From: Methanomassiliicoccus sp. | Lineage (GTDB): Archaea > Thermoplasmatota > Thermoplasmata > Methanomassiliicoccales > Methanomassiliicoccaceae | Reading direction: 5' to 3' | NCBI GenBank assembly: GCA_012719175.1 | Contig: JAAYAX010000005.1 | Span: forward strand, 62,001 to 126,000 | Length of the DNA: 64,000 nucleotides | In this document: piece after piece, positions 28,280 to 37,510 of the stretch | Position numbering within the stretch: position 1 is the first letter of the stretch | Layout: every line of letters begins with the position of its first letter | Position numbers and translations under genes: made by a program | Notes under the pieces: generated by a model | The model's database searches: none | Told to the model about the DNA's origin: nothing | Seen by the model: the letters and a program-made list of their open reading frames with translations, nothing else

Positions 28280-31200
28280 TCAGCTCCCCTCTTTGAAGCC
28301 ATCTAGGTCATCCATGCGTCCATCGTCGATATCTTTGGCCTTCCTCGTCCTGCTCGGGGCGACGGTGGCCAGTGTCCTCTCGACCCGTTTCTTGATGGCA
28401 GCGGTAGGCCTCTTGTAGCCCAGGAGGTCGGAGACATCGTTCACCACCCTTTTCACCCTGATGTTGGGGGTCCTGGCGGTTATCATCCTCACCATGGCCT
28501 CCATCTCAGCATCGCACACATGATCGATGTCGCGCCGTGGTGAGTAACAGCGCCGGGGGCGCAGAGTCCTGAGGTCCGCGGGCCACAAGAAGTCGCCCTC
28601 TATCCTGATCCTGCTCTCTTCCTCCAGACCGCCGATCGCCGGCCGTATAAGCCTGTCCACGTTTGAGGGGCGCTTCCCTGTGGAGACCGCGACCAGCTCC
28701 TTGACCCGGTCCCGGACGACGGTCATATGGACCGGACCTTCCTCCTCGACCACCCTGATGGCCGCCTCCCGCATCGCCGCTTCTTGGTCCTGCGCAAATA
28801 GGTAGACCAGGGACGGGTCCTCATGCAGCCGGGCCCGGGAATAGATCGCGCACAGGTCCCTCAGGGGCTCGTCCGGGGCCATTAGCCCCTGGCTTACGGC
28901 CCTGGTGTCCGGCTCGGCGGCGATGGCGGCGGGCACCTCATCCACAATGAGCTCGGTCTCCTCCGAGGCGCTGTTAAAGGAGATGGACCCGCCCTCAGCG
29001 GATAGGTCGACCTCTTCCGCGGCCGACAGGGACGTCATTACGGTACCGTCCACCTCCGGATCGGCAGAGCTCCAGCCTCCGCCCGCGATGCCGTCATCGA
29101 CGGTCAAGGTGTTAGGTGCATCGGACGCCCCGGCCATATCCACCACTGACAGCGAGGCCACCAGGACCTCTAGTGGTCTCATCTCCTCATCGGCCTCCTT
29201 CTCCGCGTGCGCAGTCCTGCTCATCTCCACGGCGGCCACGATCCGCTCCACCTCCGCCTGGGGGTTGCTTAGCCAATCCTGGGACCAGAGGCGGTGGAGT
29301 ATCCAACCTAAGTTGGTGAGGACCTCCTGCCGGAGCCGATCCCGGTCCCTGGCGCCTCCTGCCTTGCGGTAGGACCGGCCGTCAGTAAGGATGCCCAGAA
29401 GGTATCTTCCAGGATGCTCATCATCGACTATGGCCAGATCGACCTTGCCGGAGGACATCCCCACATCCCTCTCCACCTTCAGGCCGCGCTCCTCCAACCG
29501 CTCACGGACGTCGTCCGCGATGGGGTCCCGTGCGCCCGAACTCGCTCCATTCTCCACTTCGTGCCCGGGCCATGCGGCGTATTCTAGATAATCCCTTAGC
29601 ACGTCCCTTCCATTGGCATCAGTCTCGATCTCCTCCGGCAGCAGCGAGGAGACGAGCTTGATGTGCTTCCTCGCCCGAGTGACGGCGACGTTCAGGCGCC
29701 TCCTGCCCATCTCGCCTTTGAGCAGGCCCAAGCTCCTGAACATCCTGCCCGATCGGTCCTTACAGTGGCCCACGGAAATTATGATCACGTCCCTCTCGTC
29801 CCCCTGCACGGCATCCAGACTCTTGACGAAGAAGGACTCCTCCCTGGCGCGGGTGAGCAGAGGTGCCAGAGCGGGATCCTGGGCGGTCCTGCGCTCCAGC
29901 TCCGCCAGGATGGCCACCTGCTGGGTTTCGGTGAATGCCACCACTCCCAGGGAATCTCGGGAACGATGACCGACATGCTCCAGGACCAGGTCGACCACCT
30001 TCTTGGCCTCCGCCTCGCTGTGGTCGCACCTGCCCTCTTCTCCGATCGCCCCCGGCACGTGGACGAACGAAACGCCCAGGTCCTCCCGGTCCAACGTTGC
30101 TGACGGGTAGGTTATCAACCGTCCACCGTAGAATCTTTCGTTGGAGAACGCGAACAGCGACTCCTGCCGCGACCGGTAATGCCACAAGAGCGATCTCTGG
30201 GGCAGCGACCCCGAGCACGCGTCCATAATGCTCTCTCGACCCTCCGCTATCGCTCCCTCGGCACCCGTGGCCAGGTCCATCGGGGGCAGCTGCATGCTGT
30301 CCCCCACTACCACCACCTGCTTGGCGCGGAGCATGCTGGCTATCCCGTCCTCTACGCGCATCTGTGAGGCCTCATCAAGGATAAGCAGGTCGAAGAGGGC
30401 GGTGGTAGGGTCCAGAAGGGCGGTGACCGCCCGGGGGCTCATCATGAGGCAGGGCTTTATCGCAAGTATGTGGTCCAAGGCCGAGGCGAACAATCCCCCC
30501 AGGGACCCCCTCTGCCCAATGCCGGATACCTCACTCTTGGGTATGGAATGCTGTTCCTCGCTCTGCTCCGAGATGCTCCTGAAGGCATCACCGCGGTGCC
30601 TTTCGAGCGCCCGTCTGGTCTGCGAGGTGGCCGCCTCCAAACTATCGAGGTCCAGCTCTGCAAAGCGGGCCGCCCTGCGCTCATGGGTCTCCCGGTCGAA
30701 GAGCCGAAGCCTGTCGTCACGGGACAGAAGAAGGTCGTGCCACAGCATGAGGTGCCGCTTGCGAACTCCCTCCCAAGTGCTCTCCGGAGAAAGCTTTCCG
30801 GCCGAGGCTAATATCAAGAGGTCCTCCAATCCGCTCTCCCGCGCCTCCTTCTGTATCCGCACCACCTCTGTCCACTCCTGGAAGGAGGTGGCGTGATCAA
30901 GATGGTTCTGGGCCCAGTCGTTCAGCTCCTGGAACGGCACCTCGCTGACGCTCCTACCGTTCATCAATGGGCTCAGGTCGAAACGTTCCCTTACCGCCGA
31001 AACGGCCGTGGACAGGCGCTGTGCGGCCTCGTCCAGGGAGTCGATCTTGGTCTTGAGGCCCTCGAGGGCGTCGGGACCGGAACACAGGAGGCGCGTGATG
31101 CCGGGGGTCTGTGGGACCCCGTTCTTGGCGCGGTACTCGCGCGTCCACTCGATGGCCTTGACGGTCTTGGCCCAGTCCGTCTTGTCCCCTTGGAAGTGCC

Positions 31201-33136
31201 TTCCCAGACGCTCGGCGCAATCCCTCTCATCCTTCTGGATGTGGGAGATCAGGTCCGAGACCTCGACCAGCTCCTTGAGCTCGAAGCACGCCTGAGCATG
31301 CTTGAGCTTGCGGTTCCCCCGTTTCAGGCTCTCCAATGCCTTCATGTCCCTGCGGTAGTCGTGGTCGAAGAGCCTCGTGGTCATCTTGCTGCCCTGGAGG
31401 GCCCTCTCCTGCATACCCTTGAGGTCCAGGTCGAGGACCCCATCGCGGTACATCTGTTTCACCCAGGTCATCCTTTCCAGGCGCTGCCTGTATGATTCCT
31501 GGATGTCCTCCACGAGCTCCAGCAGGGGAGCGGGGTCGCTGATCAGCCAACTCTCCTCAGGATAGTGGGTGAGGTTGATCGCCCGGAGATGGTCGGTCAG
31601 CTCGTTGGTGCCCTTGAGGTCCCGGGGGACGGGAAGGTCATACTCCTCGCACAGGCTCTTAATGACCTCCTCGAGGCGGGTCCGGGAAAGCTTAAGGTCC
31701 GAAAGCCGGCGCATGATCTCCGACTGCGCGCTCAGCTGCCATTTCCCTACCTCGCAGTCCGCCCAGGGGTGCGTCTCGCTCGTTTCCAGCAGAGGAGCAT
31801 ACTTCTCCAAGTCCTTTACCAGAGGCTGCAGGGACTCCAGGTATCTGGCGCTCATCCTCTCCAGTCCGGGGAAGCCCAGGGAGACCTCCGCTACCGATCT
31901 CAGCTCGGTGAGGCGGGATAGAACCTCATGGAAGGACATTCCCAGGCCCTCCCTCACCTGATGGAGGGCTTCCACGTATCCGTCCAGCTGTTTGCGGCAT
32001 TGCTCCATCTCCTCACGGGAGAAGGTCACCGTGGAGGAGGACGGGAGGGATGACAGGCATCTGCCGAGCTCGTCGGCCACTTCGCGGACGTCCCGCTGGG
32101 GGTCGTACAGATCGAGACAGTACCGACCCAAGCCTCTCGTCTCCATCCGTTTCCGGACCGTATCCAGAGCATACCTCTTCTCCGAAACGAAAAGGACCTT
32201 GCGTCCTCGCGCGATCTCCTCGGTGATCATGTTCACTATGGTCTGGCTCTTGCCAGTACCAGGGGGGCCCTGCAGCACGAAGCTGGTCCCGGAGAGCATC
32301 AGCGAGACCGCCTCCCTTTGGCTGGAATCCGCGTCCAGGACGCTGAACGCCTCCGCGTCGACCGCTTCCCTGGAGCCGGAGCACTCGTCCGGAGCGCCTT
32401 TGCCCTGGGCGATAACTCTTATCACCGGATGAGCGACCATCATGTCCTGGTACTTGGCGAACTCGTCGTGGACGGCCATATGGGGCAGCTCGAAAAGGCC
32501 CAGGTGTGCCGCCGACGTCACGTCCCAGCCTTTCCCCGTGAAAAGATCGCGCAACTCTTGGAAGTAACCATCCACGTCCACCACGCCCTCAGAGAGAGGG
32601 GGGAGGGACAGCGACATCTCTGTGCGCAGTTTATGCTCCAGGACAGGGTTGAGCAGGACCGGCCCGTCGGCCCACAGCTCGAAGTCCACCGAGGACGGTG
32701 GACGCGTGACGCGGACCGGTAATAAGAGCAAAGGGGAGCGTGCCCTCCTGCCCTGAGTGCCGTCACTCGACCACTCCAGGCTGCCCATGGCGAGGAACAG
32801 GACGCGGACGCCCTGGGCGTCTAGGACCTCCTGCGCCTTGGAGTACATCGACATGAGCGAACTGGAGACCTTGGCGTTTCCGACGGAGGAAGATAAGTGG
32901 AGGCACTCGATCGACCGCGAAGCATCGCCTTCCGAAGTCCCGAGGCGGACGACGAATGAGCCGTTACGAAGAGCGAGCTCACGGTATATCTCTGCGGGAG
33001 AGGTTCCGATCAGGCCCATGCAGGCAGTGCACCCCTCTCCCATGTCCACCAGCCTGTTCCTCAAGGTGATGTCGATAAGATCATTTCGTAAACTGGATAT
33101 ACGTTCGACTACAACATCCGCGCTCAGAGTGACCAT
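28280..33136 (-). CDS. Second DUF4011/COG1112 superfamily I helicase (paralog)
   Basis: About 1618 residues and collinear with the downstream paralog. Seen: DUF4011-like LIDITLRNRLVDM at the start, Walker A QGPPGTGKSQT at about 291, LDEASQ at about 920, GDSMQLPP, QGDERDV and NVAVTRAR. The nuclease-like domain at about 1230 reads KVDLAI and GILTDG...YR, so the usual Glu and His are absent as in the other copy. An acidic, Ser-rich linker (about 1310-1440) and two winged-helix-like segments (about 1470-1600) end the protein. I chose ATG 33136 over TTG 33145 because GGTGGG precedes it. The 73-base gap to the next gene suggests one transcript. Confidence 0.85.
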   Translation of the reverse strand: MVTLSADVVVERISSLRNDLIDITLRNRLVDMGEGCTACMGLIGTSPAEIYRELALRNGSFVVRLGTSEGDASRSIECLHLSSSVGNAKVSSSLMSMYSKAQEVLDAQGVRVLFLAMGSLEWSSDGTQGRRARSPLLLLPVRVTRPPSSVDFELWADGPVLLNPVLEHKLRTEMSLSLPPLSEGVVDVDGYFQELRDLFTGKGWDVTSAAHLGLFELPHMAVHDEFAKYQDMMVAHPVIRVIAQGKGAPDECSGSREAVDAEAFSVLDADSSQREAVSLMLSGTSFVLQGPPGTGKSQTIVNMITEEIARGRKVLFVSEKRYALDTVRKRMETRGLGRYCLDLYDPQRDVREVADELGRCLSSLPSSSTVTFSREEMEQCRKQLDGYVEALHQVREGLGMSFHEVLSRLTELRSVAEVSLGFPGLERMSARYLESLQPLVKDLEKYAPLLETSETHPWADCEVGKWQLSAQSEIMRRLSDLKLSRTRLEEVIKSLCEEYDLPVPRDLKGTNELTDHLRAINLTHYPEESWLISDPAPLLELVEDIQESYRQRLERMTWVKQMYRDGVLDLDLKGMQERALQGSKMTTRLFDHDYRRDMKALESLKRGNRKLKHAQACFELKELVEVSDLISHIQKDERDCAERLGRHFQGDKTDWAKTVKAIEWTREYRAKNGVPQTPGITRLLCSGPDALEGLKTKIDSLDEAAQRLSTAVSAVRERFDLSPLMNGRSVSEVPFQELNDWAQNHLDHATSFQEWTEVVRIQKEARESGLEDLLILASAGKLSPESTWEGVRKRHLMLWHDLLLSRDDRLRLFDRETHERRAARFAELDLDSLEAATSQTRRALERHRGDAFRSISEQSEEQHSIPKSEVSGIGQRGSLGGLFASALDHILAIKPCLMMSPRAVTALLDPTTALFDLLILDEASQMRVEDGIASMLRAKQVVVVGDSMQLPPMDLATGAEGAIAEGRESIMDACSGSLPQRSLLWHYRSRQESLFAFSNERFYGGRLITYPSATLDREDLGVSFVHVPGAIGEEGRCDHSEAEAKKVVDLVLEHVGHRSRDSLGVVAFTETQQVAILAELERRTAQDPALAPLLTRAREESFFVKSLDAVQGDERDVIIISVGHCKDRSGRMFRSLGLLKGEMGRRRLNVAVTRARKHIKLVSSLLPEEIETDANGRDVLRDYLEYAAWPGHEVENGASSGARDPIADDVRERLEERGLKVERDVGMSSGKVDLAIVDDEHPGRYLLGILTDGRSYRKAGGARDRDRLRQEVLTNLGWILHRLWSQDWLSNPQAEVERIVAAVEMSRTAHAEKEADEEMRPLEVLVASLSVVDMAGASDAPNTLTVDDGIAGGGWSSADPEVDGTVMTSLSAAEEVDLSAEGGSISFNSASEETELIVDEVPAAIAAEPDTRAVSQGLMAPDEPLRDLCAIYSRARLHEDPSLVYLFAQDQEAAMREAAIRVVEEEGPVHMTVVRDRVKELVAVSTGKRPSNVDRLIRPAIGGLEEESRIRIEGDFLWPADLRTLRPRRCYSPRRDIDHVCDAEMEAMVRMITARTPNIRVKRVVNDVSDLLGYKRPTAAIKKRVERTLATVAPSRTRKAKDIDDGRMDDLDGFKEGS

Positions 33137-33309
33137 CCCACCCAAGCGTCATGGGTTAATAGCGGAAAAATATTGCGCTGTCATTACCACGGCCTCTTAG
33201 CGTTATAAAGAAGGACTATTCCTGGCATTGATGTAGATAAATAGCAATTAAATATGCCCTCCCGCATTGCATTGTTCGTTCGGAACACACCGAGCGCATT
33301 GGTGCGATT

Positions 33310-35214: not shown

Positions 35215-35898
35215 CTATAAACGATGCCAACAGCGCGTGCCGGTCACGGCTCCCGGGCATGGGGCATCCGCCGTCTGGCGCATGCGCACGGTGGTCCCGA
35301 AATAGGGGCTCTGAAACTCGTCCCAGTATATGGCGAACGGCCTCGATCTCACCTTTTCCTCCTCCAGGTAGAAGGCCTCTATCTCTTTGTTGACAGGGTC
35401 GATGACCACAGCCGAATGGCAGCGCATGTTGAACATCCCCCGCTGGGTCTGGACGTCTGTTGAGGACATGTAGCAATGGTAGGAGGGATGGGAATGGTAC
35501 CATCCCACGATCACATATCGGAACCCGATGTCATCAAGGCAGGCGAACAGCTTCTCGAAGGCATTGGGATCGAAGCGTACGCTCACCTCGGTAGCGTCCA
35601 GATCAGTGGTGGCCACATCGCGCACCACCGCGTACTCCCTGCCCGCATATCGGAAGATTGACCCCAGCATCAGACCCATGACCTCCTTCCTCTCCTCCAC
35701 GTGCATGATCGCGTGGTTGCGCATCTTCTCCTCCGCCACCTTGGAGATGTATAGCTCGAACCCCGTGGCCTCCTGAGAGCGGTACTCCGACTGGCACTTT
35801 TCGGTCAGCCACTTGTGGGCCTTGATGCGATTCTTGGAAGGAGGAGGCGCTTCGCGCACCTCCGCCTGCTGCTTCCCCACGATGATCGGATGGCTCAT
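35215..35898 (-). CDS. JAMM/MPN+ metalloprotease, Rpn11-like deubiquitinase
   Basis: A 227-residue zinc isopeptidase candidate. The JAMM active site is complete: Glu72 (KEVMG), then His135-x-His137 and Ser145-x-x-Asp148 in GWYHSHPSYHCYMSSTD. The wording GWYHSHP...S..D.QTQ is strikingly close to eukaryotic Rpn11. A 50-residue charged N-terminal extension precedes the MPN core. It is the last gene of the E1-Ubl-E2-JAMM cluster; its ATG overlaps the E2 stop (ATGA). Predicted role: remove the six-residue tail of the Ubl precursor, cleave conjugates, or both. Confidence 0.93.
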   Translation of the reverse strand: MSHPIIVGKQQAEVREAPPPSKNRIKAHKWLTEKCQSEYRSQEATGFELYISKVAEEKMRNHAIMHVEERKEVMGLMLGSIFRYAGREYAVVRDVATTDLDATEVSVRFDPNAFEKLFACLDDIGFRYVIVGWYHSHPSYHCYMSSTDVQTQRGMFNMRCHSAVVIDPVNKEIEAFYLEEEKVRSRPFAIYWDEFQSPYFGTTVRMRQTADAPCPGAVTGTRCWHRL

Positions 35899-36404
35899 TC
35901 CCGACCCACCACCCTAGGCACAGGGGCGGAGAGCATGGGCGGCAACCTTCTCTCACCGTTGTTGAAATACTCCGCTGCCGCCGTGCAGCTGTCCGTTCCG
36001 AACGGGCTGCTGGGATTGGGGGTGGTGACCAGGGACTCCACTCCCTTTATGAACGAGATCATGGTGGAGTTGAAGCTCCAATCCTCCAGCAGCTTGGTGC
36101 AGACGTAGCCACCATCCTCGGGCATCATGATGTTGGGGTGGAATATCGGCGTCAGCCAGGCGATGTGCGGCTTGACGAACGGATAATCCCTGCCGATGCT
36201 GATGCGCAGGCGGTGGCTGTACCTCTGAACGACACGATCCCCCTCGACGCAGGGTCCGGGAACCTTCAGCAGCTCCACCTCTATATCGATGGGGAAGATG
36301 ACCTCTCTGGAGCTGCGGAGATCGGGGGAGGAGGTGATGTACCTCGCGCACGCCCTGATCTCGTTCCGCAACCTTGCCAGCAGGATGTCAGAGGGGAGGG
36401 CCAC
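35895..36404 (-). CDS. E2-like ubiquitin-conjugating enzyme
   Basis: A 169-residue UBC-fold protein. Seen from the GTG start: an N-terminal helix (residues 5-22), YPFVKP at 74-79, LTPIFHPN with the HPN triad at 89-91, the active-site Cys102 in GGYVCTKLL, then EDWS and a PNPSSPF loop. All are placed as in eukaryotic E2s. It would accept the Ubl from the E1 as a thioester and pass it to lysines. I prefer GTG 36404, which overlaps the Ubl stop and follows GAGGGCGG, over ATG 36446, which would add 14 residues inside the Ubl gene. Downstream JAMM gene overlaps by 4 bases. Confidence 0.93.
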   Translation of the reverse strand: MALPSDILLARLRNEIRACARYITSSPDLRSSREVIFPIDIEVELLKVPGPCVEGDRVVQRYSHRLRISIGRDYPFVKPHIAWLTPIFHPNIMMPEDGGYVCTKLLEDWSFNSTMISFIKGVESLVTTPNPSSPFGTDSCTAAAEYFNNGERRLPPMLSAPVPRVVGRE

Positions 36405-36645
36405 TGTATCCGCCCTCGGGGTCAGGGATGAGCTCCAGTTCATCATTGTTCTGGATGCCTGCTTCCGACACCGTCTGTTGGCCCCTTAGAAGCTTCTTAC
36501 CTCTCCGGATGACGTAGGCCCCAGCATCCTTTTCCCAATATCCTGCGGCCCCTTCTATGATCTCCTCCACGGTATTCTCCTGTTCTAGCTCCATGTCTAC
36601 CGTCGACCCGCTCTCTGCGTTCCTTACTTTCACCCTGAAGGGCAT
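36388..36645 (-). CDS. Ubiquitin-like modifier precursor with Gly-Gly and C-terminal tail
   Basis: An 85-residue beta-grasp protein. Features of the fold: TVDMELEQENTVEEII (first hairpin and helix start), YVIRRGKKL (third strand), TVSEAGIQNNDELELIP (last turn and strand). The end is PDPEGG followed by YSGPPL. Gly78-Gly79 are thus masked by six residues and need trimming before activation, like ubiquitin, SUMO and the Caldiarchaeum ubiquitin. The start is ATG 36645: a TATA-like box lies about 30 bases upstream, giving a leaderless message, while the ATG at 36681 lies inside the promoter. It is followed by E2 and JAMM genes and preceded by the E1. Confidence 0.9.
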   Translation of the reverse strand: MPFRVKVRNAESGSTVDMELEQENTVEEIIEGAAGYWEKDAGAYVIRRGKKLLRGQQTVSEAGIQNNDELELIPDPEGGYSGPPL

Positions 36646-36660
36646 ATTATTCAACCAATT

Positions 36661-36680
36661 GTATAAAATTAGTTTATACA
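36661..36680 (-). promoter_or_regulatory. TATA-box promoter for the Ubl-E2-JAMM genes
   Basis: The minus strand reads TGTATAAAC at 36672-36680 and TTTTATAC at 36661-36668, in an otherwise GC-rich region. The first lies about 31 bases before the Ubl ATG, so transcription could start at the start codon. The three downstream genes may be expressed apart from the E1. Confidence 0.5.
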
Positions 36681-36715
36681 CATAAAACTGACTGTTCTAT
36701 GTAGTCTATTTGATA

Positions 36716-37510
36716 TTATTCATGACCCATATGATGGAGCGGACAGAGGGGGTCGAAGGACGCCTCCAATACTTCCCAGGTGTTATGTAACCCATTGAGA
36801 TGAAGGACGTTCCTGATGATCGAATCATCTCGACCGCTCACGATCTTGAGAGCCTCACGCACCTGTACCGCCGCCACCATGGCCGTGGTTGTGATCTCCG
36901 CTGCCATCTTTGGCTGGAAGTAGGTCATCTCTGTTCCAGTGCATGAGTTCCTTCGCTCTAATATCCTGTAGTGGCTGCGGTTGAGGCCGCACTGCAGGCA
37001 GGGAGTGGACGGGGGAAGTATGACCTGCACCCTGCCCGCATGTCCGTTGGTGCCACCATCGATGTACGGCATCATGTTGAAATACGAGAAGGAGTTGACA
37101 TGTAGGCGCGCAGCCACATTATCCAGGCACCCTAGAACTATGCTATGCTCACCCCATGAATCTTCGGGAAGGTCCTCCACCTTTCCCACCACGGGATCGA
37201 TATCCACGCTAGGATCCAGCTCCCGAACCCTCTCGGCGACCACCTCTGCTTTGGGCCTCCTTGCCTCGCTGTCACCTTCTCTGAAGAAGATGCAGCGGTT
37301 GAGGTTGGAACGCACCACATGGTCCATGTCCACCAAGGTTATCTTGCGGGCGCCGGACAGAATCAGGTCCTTTACCACCTCGTTGCCCAAGGCCCCAGCG
37401 CCGACCACCAGAAAACTGGAGGACCGCAACTTCTCCATGTCCATCCACTTGATGCGCCGGGAACGATCCCAGCGGTCCTCGTCCCCCTCTCTGGCCCGTA
37501 TCACCGTCAT
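36716..37510 (-). CDS. E1-like ThiF-family activating enzyme
   Basis: A 264-residue adenylation enzyme. Seen: the nucleotide loop GAGALG (37-42); DMDHVVRSNLNR (61-72) with the conserved Asp, Asn and Arg; RPKAE with Lys88 region; GCLDN (127-131); DGG; CLQC (171-174) paired with CPLHH (256-260) as a zinc site; and NSCTGTE with Cys190 at the place of the catalytic Cys of eukaryotic Uba3-type E1s. The SNLNR wording is closer to eukaryotic E1 than to MoeB/ThiF. It would adenylate the Ubl Gly and carry it on Cys190 to the E2. It lacks the ubiquitin-fold domain, as single-domain prokaryotic E1s do. An AGGA site precedes the ATG; the Ubl gene starts 70 bases downstream. Confidence 0.92.
   Translation of the reverse strand: MTVIRAREGDEDRWDRSRRIKWMDMEKLRSSSFLVVGAGALGNEVVKDLILSGARKITLVDMDHVVRSNLNRCIFFREGDSEARRPKAEVVAERVRELDPSVDIDPVVGKVEDLPEDSWGEHSIVLGCLDNVAARLHVNSFSYFNMMPYIDGGTNGHAGRVQVILPPSTPCLQCGLNRSHYRILERRNSCTGTEMTYFQPKMAAEITTTAMVAAVQVREALKIVSGRDDSIIRNVLHLNGLHNTWEVLEASFDPLCPLHHMGHE

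Follow-up and report, generated by a model that had tools for sequence, protein, structure and literature searches.

Four genes for a probable ubiquitin-type cascade

We analyzed a 64,000-nucleotide stretch of the Methanomassiliicoccus sp. contig JAAYAX010000005.1 (positions 62,001 to 126,000, assembly GCA_012719175.1; hereafter the window), in which four open reading frames (ORFs) on the minus strand, spanning 35215-37510, encode in this order an E1-like activating enzyme, a ubiquitin-like modifier (Ubl), an E2-like conjugating enzyme and a JAMM metalloprotease. A preliminary description of this DNA had read them as a compact E1-Ubl-E2-JAMM system; each ORF was found at its coordinates, and the Pfam domains and residues agree with that gene content. 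In what follows, G codes denote genomes (G000 is the window's own, the others those of relatives), L codes individual loci, and f and g codes families and genera; the order of the window is Methanomassiliicoccales. The features are:

36716..37510, minus strand: E1-like activating enzyme, 264 aa; ThiF adenylation domain only; GAGALG, SNLNR, candidate thioester Cys190; zinc ligands C171, C174, C256 and H259; without a C-terminal ubiquitin-fold domain (UFD)
36388..36645, minus strand: Ubl modifier precursor, 85 aa; beta-grasp fold; ...IPDPEGG, then the six-residue tail YSGPPL
36388..36404, minus strand: overlap of the Ubl 3' end and the E2 start, 17 nt; putative translational coupling
35895..36404, minus strand: E2-like conjugating enzyme, 169 aa from a conserved GTG; HPN 89-91, catalytic Cys102, second conserved Cys140; in-frame ATG at 36446
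35215..35898, minus strand: Rpn11-like JAMM metalloprotease, 227 aa; E72, H135xH137, S145xxD148; start overlaps the E2 stop (ATGA)

The E1 and Ubl ORFs are separated by 70 bp. The 17-nt overlap of Ubl and E2 probably reflects translational coupling and, together with the ATGA overlap of E2 and JAMM, supports the co-translation proposed earlier for these genes. The GTG start of the E2 is favored over the upstream ATG because relatives start at the same point (M-x-LP-x-D-x-L); counted from it, the HPN motif and catalytic cysteine fall exactly where the preliminary description had placed them, whereas counting from the ATG gives HPN 103-105 and C116.

Profile searches, which the preliminary description had proposed for each protein, matched the E1 to Pfam ThiF (3e-52), the E2 to UQ_con (2.7e-13) and the JAMM protein to JAB (1.1e-13), whereas searches with PADLOC and NCBIfam returned no specific family for the E2 or the Ubl. 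The Ubl matched Pfam ubiquitin at 9.5e-5, below the gathering score, and its fold was therefore checked by structure. An AlphaFold2 model of the Ubl (mean pLDDT 87.7) had SUMO, ubiquitin, ISG15 and the ubiquitin of Caldiarchaeum (Candidatus Caldarchaeum subterraneum; 6fj7) among its top matches in the Protein Data Bank (PDB), and a model of the E2, with a moderate pLDDT of 71.7, matched UBC E2s there. Structure prediction had been suggested for all four proteins; the models cover these two.

The residues on which each activity would depend are conserved in 58-81 loci, and for this reason we do not regard the operon as a chance assembly. The E1 motifs named in the preliminary description are all present; C190 is invariant (58/58 loci), as are zinc ligands C171, C174 and C256, while H259, five residues from the C-terminus, is kept in 49/56 and replaced by Cys in six. 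By sequence, the protein thus pairs an adenylation domain with a conserved candidate thioester cysteine. The E2 combines a UBC fold with HPN (81/81 loci) and the catalytic Cys (79/81). A second cysteine of the E2, C140 from the GTG (C154 from the ATG), is also nearly invariant (74/76 loci).

Distribution, inheritance and loss of the operon

A search for PF00179 (E2) in 390 evenly drawn Thermoplasmatota genomes gave matches in 83, and the gene order was rebuilt for about 80 loci around these E2s. Every locus of the window's order in this first set has the arrangement E1-Ubl-E2-JAMM, which is also seen in several further families, both within the class and in the wider phylum; elsewhere we found Ubl-E2-JAMM-E1, in-frame Ubl-E2 fusions and E1(with UFD)-E2-JAMM. 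In-frame fusions were noted at L078, L079, L081, L082, L112, L113, L171, L174, L183 and L187. The f20 fusions have no GG at the junction, and their Ubl part may serve the E2 rather than act as a free modifier.

Within the order, 147 genomes were scored, with E<=1e-35 for an E1 of the window type and E<=1e-10 for JAMM. The E2 is present in 96, and the other genes go with it: the window-type E1 occurs in 95/96 E2-positive genomes versus 3/51 E2-negative ones, and JAMM in 87/96 versus 1/51. Eight of the nine apparently missing JAMM genes are degenerate copies, and the ninth (G462) falls at a contig end. Losses of the operon occur in separate lineages of families f1 and f2, and even species of one genus can differ in whether they have it. 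PheS (140/147) and the neighboring SIS gene (138/147) are kept regardless of the operon, so most of these losses are not assembly gaps, and deletion of the whole region was rejected as the cause of joint loss, as the SIS neighbor is retained in most E2-negative genomes. SIS is also absent in G282, G409, G410 and G379, where the operon may be unsequenced (G379 above all).

The operon is present in single copy at a fixed site beside the SIS gene and, in many relatives, also beside a ribosomal-protein cluster; the trees broadly follow families, and no E2 relative was found among the viral contigs, phages and plasmids searched. These patterns support the earlier view of a resident, non-mobile operon and indicate that it is vertically inherited and has been lost as a unit many times.

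The modifier tail and the JAMM peptidase

The Ubl ends in IPDPEGG, or nearly so, in almost all relatives, with the terminal GG conserved in about 69/72 loci, and a freely varying tail of 0-9 residues follows. The preliminary description of a beta-grasp protein ending in GG plus six residues (PDPEGG-YSGPPL) is thus borne out, the fold by the model and the GG by conservation; removal of the tail is itself a prediction. The complete E-HxH-SxxD site described for the JAMM protein was likewise confirmed, and E72 (71/71), HxH (69/72) and the Asp (71/71) are conserved among relatives. Its best similarity is to Rpn11/CSN5 (Rpn11 2.6e-16), as befits a peptidase of the Rpn11 type.

Loss of the JAMM active site was seen only beside Ubls that end exactly at GG. 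In genus g5, JAMM has lost the Glu, HxH and Ser residues, and the Ubl ends exactly at GG. A separate second case is G435 (genus g6), in which JAMM reads GWYRSVPGGG where relatives have GWYHSHLGIG; its Ubl has no tail, whereas the other g6 Ubls examined have one residue past GG. By tree, the active site died in these two lineages separately. Across the order, a tailed Ubl accompanies an intact JAMM in 47 cases and a dead one in none, while Ubls ending at GG occur with an intact JAMM in 17 and a dead one in seven. This pattern, with comparative support from two lineages, fits a role of JAMM as Ubl maturase. That JAMM stays intact beside 17 GG-ended Ubls suggests that the enzyme does something else as well, most simply deconjugation. 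The loci with a pseudo-JAMM and a GG-ended Ubl are L036, L040, L061 and L199-L203 (genus g5) and L216 (G435); in G417 (L203), only a degenerate E1 and the dead JAMM are retained.

A candidate E3 encoded outside the operon

The preliminary description had noted the lack of a RING gene. This holds at the locus, and the operon neighborhood throughout the order contains no conserved RING gene; it probably does not hold for the system, as an unlinked RING-CH-like gene is inherited together with the operon. A RING-domain search of G000 gave one sub-threshold match:

G000 C5:326245-326985 (L117:8246-8986), minus strand, outside the window: RING-CH-like zinc protein, 247 aa; N-terminal hydrophobic segment, RING, zinc ribbons

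About 228 kb separate this gene from the operon; FtsZ and a proteasome-alpha/exosome cluster are nearby. Its relatives have a C4HC3 finger (CxxC-x10-CxCGxxxHxxC-x6-CPYC), preceded in many by a strong hydrophobic segment (a predicted membrane helix) and followed in most by zinc ribbons. The RING-CH pattern of eukaryotic MARCH-type ligases is likewise a C4HC3 finger, often near a membrane helix; the likeness is confined to the ligand order and the membrane anchoring.

With a finger profile (A4, E<=3e-6), the gene was found in 93/147 genomes of the order, after an extra match in G195, a 33-codon frame, was dropped. Both RING and operon are present in 91 genomes and neither in 48, which leaves eight discordant genomes of 147: six with the operon only, all 68-87% complete, and two with RING only. 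In both of the latter the operon may be unsequenced, G379 also lacking SIS and G436 having SIS right at a contig end. G396 was scored operon-positive, its E2 ORF having been found by profile. A plain Fisher test of co-occurrence (p=1.9e-29) was not relied on because the genomes are related; in tree-based pairs on the PheS tree, RING follows the operon in 7/8 independent contrasts, with none opposing (sign test p=0.0156). The genes against which this association was measured are the two controls PheS and SIS.

Outside the order, G022 (L090:1-3241) has five genes, RING-E1-Ubl-E2-JAMM, with four-base overlaps of the ATGA type, and in G005, G017, G035 and G041 the gene immediately before Ubl-E2 or E2-JAMM is a large ORF with a C-terminal RING. 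These large ORFs (L084:3-5528, L087:2-5467, L095:3-5843 and L097:2697-8360) exceed 1800 aa in the loci, reach about 3150 aa in G005 and G017, and otherwise show no confident Pfam domain. Taken together, these observations suggest that the unlinked RING-CH-like protein is probably the E3 of the Ubl system. A DUF2116 zinc protein beside the operon of some f2 genomes was considered as E3 and rejected, as it occurs at too few loci; the gene for this treble-clef membrane protein adjoins E1 at L203:4644-4874 and L216:4083-4313.

Relationship to known systems

Among the closest known systems is that of Caldiarchaeum, which has a Ub-E2-E1-RING operon and a divergently oriented Rpn11 (Nunoura 2011, as cited in PMC5654768; PMC5654768; PMC6043591). 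This Rpn11 has been shown biochemically to mature the ubiquitin precursor and to strip ubiquitin from conjugates (PMC6043591, PMC5654768). A single scan of genome contigs for Caldiarchaeum and Asgard loci recovered the Caldiarchaeum locus as Ubl-E2-E1 with a divergent JAMM. The two systems have in common their enzyme classes, a ubiquitin precursor with residues past GG and a JAMM/Rpn11 peptidase. They differ in gene order, as the preliminary description had noted, in the strand of Rpn11 and in the architecture of the enzymes: the Caldiarchaeum E1 carries a C-terminal ubiquitin fold, for which no match was found in E1s of the window type, and Caldiarchaeum E2s extend at the C-terminus with conserved residues, where the window-type E2 is shorter and dissimilar in the alignment.

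The phylogeny against Caldiarchaeum and Asgard proteins proposed in the preliminary description likewise set the window's E1 and E2 apart. In the E1 tree, the window type (98/97) joins second copies of Calditenuaceae and SAR202 Chloroflexi, and eukaryotes, Caldiarchaeum and Asgard form another group (93/89). In the E2 tree, based on a short alignment and unrooted, the window type stands apart from a group of eukaryotes, Caldiarchaeum, Asgard and some other Thermoplasmatota (99/90); a Methanomassiliicoccales metagenome-assembled genome (L198) lies among the genomes of the window's order in this tree. The window thus has neither the UFD on E1, nor the placement of E1 and E2 in the eukaryote clade, nor the RING gene in the cluster that mark the Caldiarchaeum/Asgard type. 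We would say that this is a related system on a branch separate from the eukaryote/Caldiarchaeum/Asgard clade, at a strength limited by the short, unrooted E2 tree.

Bacterial Bub/Bil systems and SAR202 Chloroflexi likewise carry E1, E2, Ubl and JAB in one operon. The SAR202 operon (L187) differs in its in-frame Ubl-E2 fusion and in its order, JAMM-E1-[Ubl-E2], while its E1 groups near the window type. Matches of Bub proteins to the window E1 are weak, and the enzymes of eukaryotes and archaea are closer to it. Of the two relatives named in the preliminary description, the Caldiarchaeum cluster therefore stands as a system of the same enzyme classes though not as a near copy, and Bub/Bil as a more remote one. 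Two further loci may be mentioned here. The SAR202 operon at L187:4706-7332, with its E1 near the Thermoplasmatota type, suggests transfer between domains, and in f44 an E2 with a C-terminal zinc ribbon (L102:3050-3607 and L108:5785-6342) lies in a Ubl-E2-E1 cluster, with JAMM further downstream in L108.

The closest published description is the JAMM-3 group, whose prokaryotic members are encoded in operons that also contain Ub, E1 and E2 genes but no E3 gene (Fuchs et al. 2018, PMC6043591), which has the operon content in common with the window; the main text of that paper names no taxa and proposes no E3. A protein of Methanomassiliicoccus luminyensis, WP_019177758, has been listed as an Rpn11 orthologue, with no mention of the operon (Fort et al. 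2015, PMC4453063). Gene Cluster III, mentioned in the supplement to PMC5654768, may include an operon of the window type. A full-text literature search for Thermoplasmatota and ubiquitin returned no paper on such a system by title or abstract. As far as checked, the phylum-wide operon with its losses, the pairing of JAMM and tail, the placement in a clade of its own and the RING gene inherited alongside the operon are new.

Proposed cycle and alternative explanations

We propose that the locus belongs to a resident ubiquitin-type conjugation system with JAMM as maturase and deconjugase and a probable RING E3, a reading to which we assign a probability of roughly 0.85; the E1-Ubl-E2-JAMM cascade itself is very probable indeed. 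The parts of the cascade are present and inherited together, and the steps of the cycle can be drawn from their catalytic residues and by analogy with Caldiarchaeum, whose system has been reconstituted biochemically. JAMM would cut the tail after PDPEGG and expose the GG, whose carboxylate E1 and ATP would adenylate, placing the modifier in a thioester on Cys190. The modifier would then pass to Cys102 of the E2 and be joined to lysines of target proteins, probably aided by the RING-CH-type E3 encoded elsewhere in the genome, and JAMM would take it off again. The alpha and beta subunits of the 20S proteasome are also present.

Several points weigh against this proposal. The association between JAMM death and tail loss consists of two events and is not significant alone, a sign test being unable to reach significance. 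The RING in the window's own family has Thr/Ser at the fourth zinc ligand (RCGTGKVFH), where most relatives, G263 among them, have the complete C4HC3 set, and may be weakened; the Pfam RING matches are below curated cut-offs; and large proteins from genomes of the class that have no operon contain similar RING-like fingers, which means that a finger does not by itself mark the system. Repeated loss shows that the system is dispensable.

Some of these points bear on the strongest alternative, an E1-Ubl-E2 system of three components with no need of an E3; the RING-CH protein would then be unrelated to it, a membrane or zinc protein lost in the same lineages by coincidence. The absence of RING from the operon in the window's order and the missing zinc ligand agree with it, and direct substrate modification is established for some E2s. 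We nevertheless consider it rather unlikely, as RING tracks the operon in the contrasts given above while PheS and SIS do not, and a related RING lies in the operon of other Thermoplasmatota, once ATGA-coupled to E1.

The window also contains, at 28280-33145, a 1621-aa DUF4011/AAA_11/AAA_12/REase MTES_1575 helicase-nuclease of defense-like character. Its position 2 kb from the operon, together with the protein families in common (E1, Ubl, E2, JAB), could suggest anti-phage defense of the Bil/Bub kind. Such a gene is near the operon in only four loci, however, and the PADLOC models match partly and weakly. The combination of mobility, patchy distribution, a defense-island context and specific E1 and E2 families that marks Bil/Bub was not found; the fixed site, the family-like trees and the absence of E2 relatives from the mobile elements searched speak for residence. 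On context, distribution and the weak PADLOC matches we rejected a defense origin, which we regard as improbable.

Two further readings appear very improbable. A sulfur carrier of the SAMP/Urm1/MoaD kind, in which the modifier would mainly deliver sulfur, could draw on a ThiF-family E1, and SAMPs employ E1 and JAMM, but sulfur carriers have no E2, whereas this system never lacks a conserved E2 with HPN and Cys; moreover, the genome has another gene, of the MoeB/ThiF type (C4:437635), the Ubl model is Ub/SUMO-like, and the E1 scores higher against UBA1/UBA3 than against MoeB. A decaying pathway of little present function would account for the many independent losses, the remnants in G417 and the dead JAMM of genus g5, but the window's genus keeps all four genes with every catalytic residue intact.

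Returning to the conjugation system, the evidence leans, if modestly, towards a complete set of E1, E2, E3, modifier and isopeptidase in Thermoplasmatota. Its E3 would be of the RING-CH type and in many cases anchored in a membrane, and the set would stand on an evolutionary branch of its own, apart from that of Asgard, Caldiarchaeum and eukaryotes; in this methanogen order, which includes gut species, the E3 gene would lie outside the operon and yet be co-inherited with it.

Biological significance

Archaeal ubiquitination has so far been discussed mainly as a forerunner of the eukaryotic system, and it has been reconstituted from the uncultured Caldiarchaeum. The branch represented by the window is widespread, is inherited vertically and occurs in an order with cultured members, among them Methanomassiliicoccus luminyensis with its Rpn11-like protein (PMC4453063), and physiological tests are therefore possible. 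As the PDPEGG ending is conserved, lysines are expected to retain a GG remnant after digestion with Glu-C, and existing K-GG antibodies could then find the targets. This branch offers a minimal E1 that has no UFD, strains that by nature either have or lack the system, and naturally occurring mutants with a dead deconjugase.

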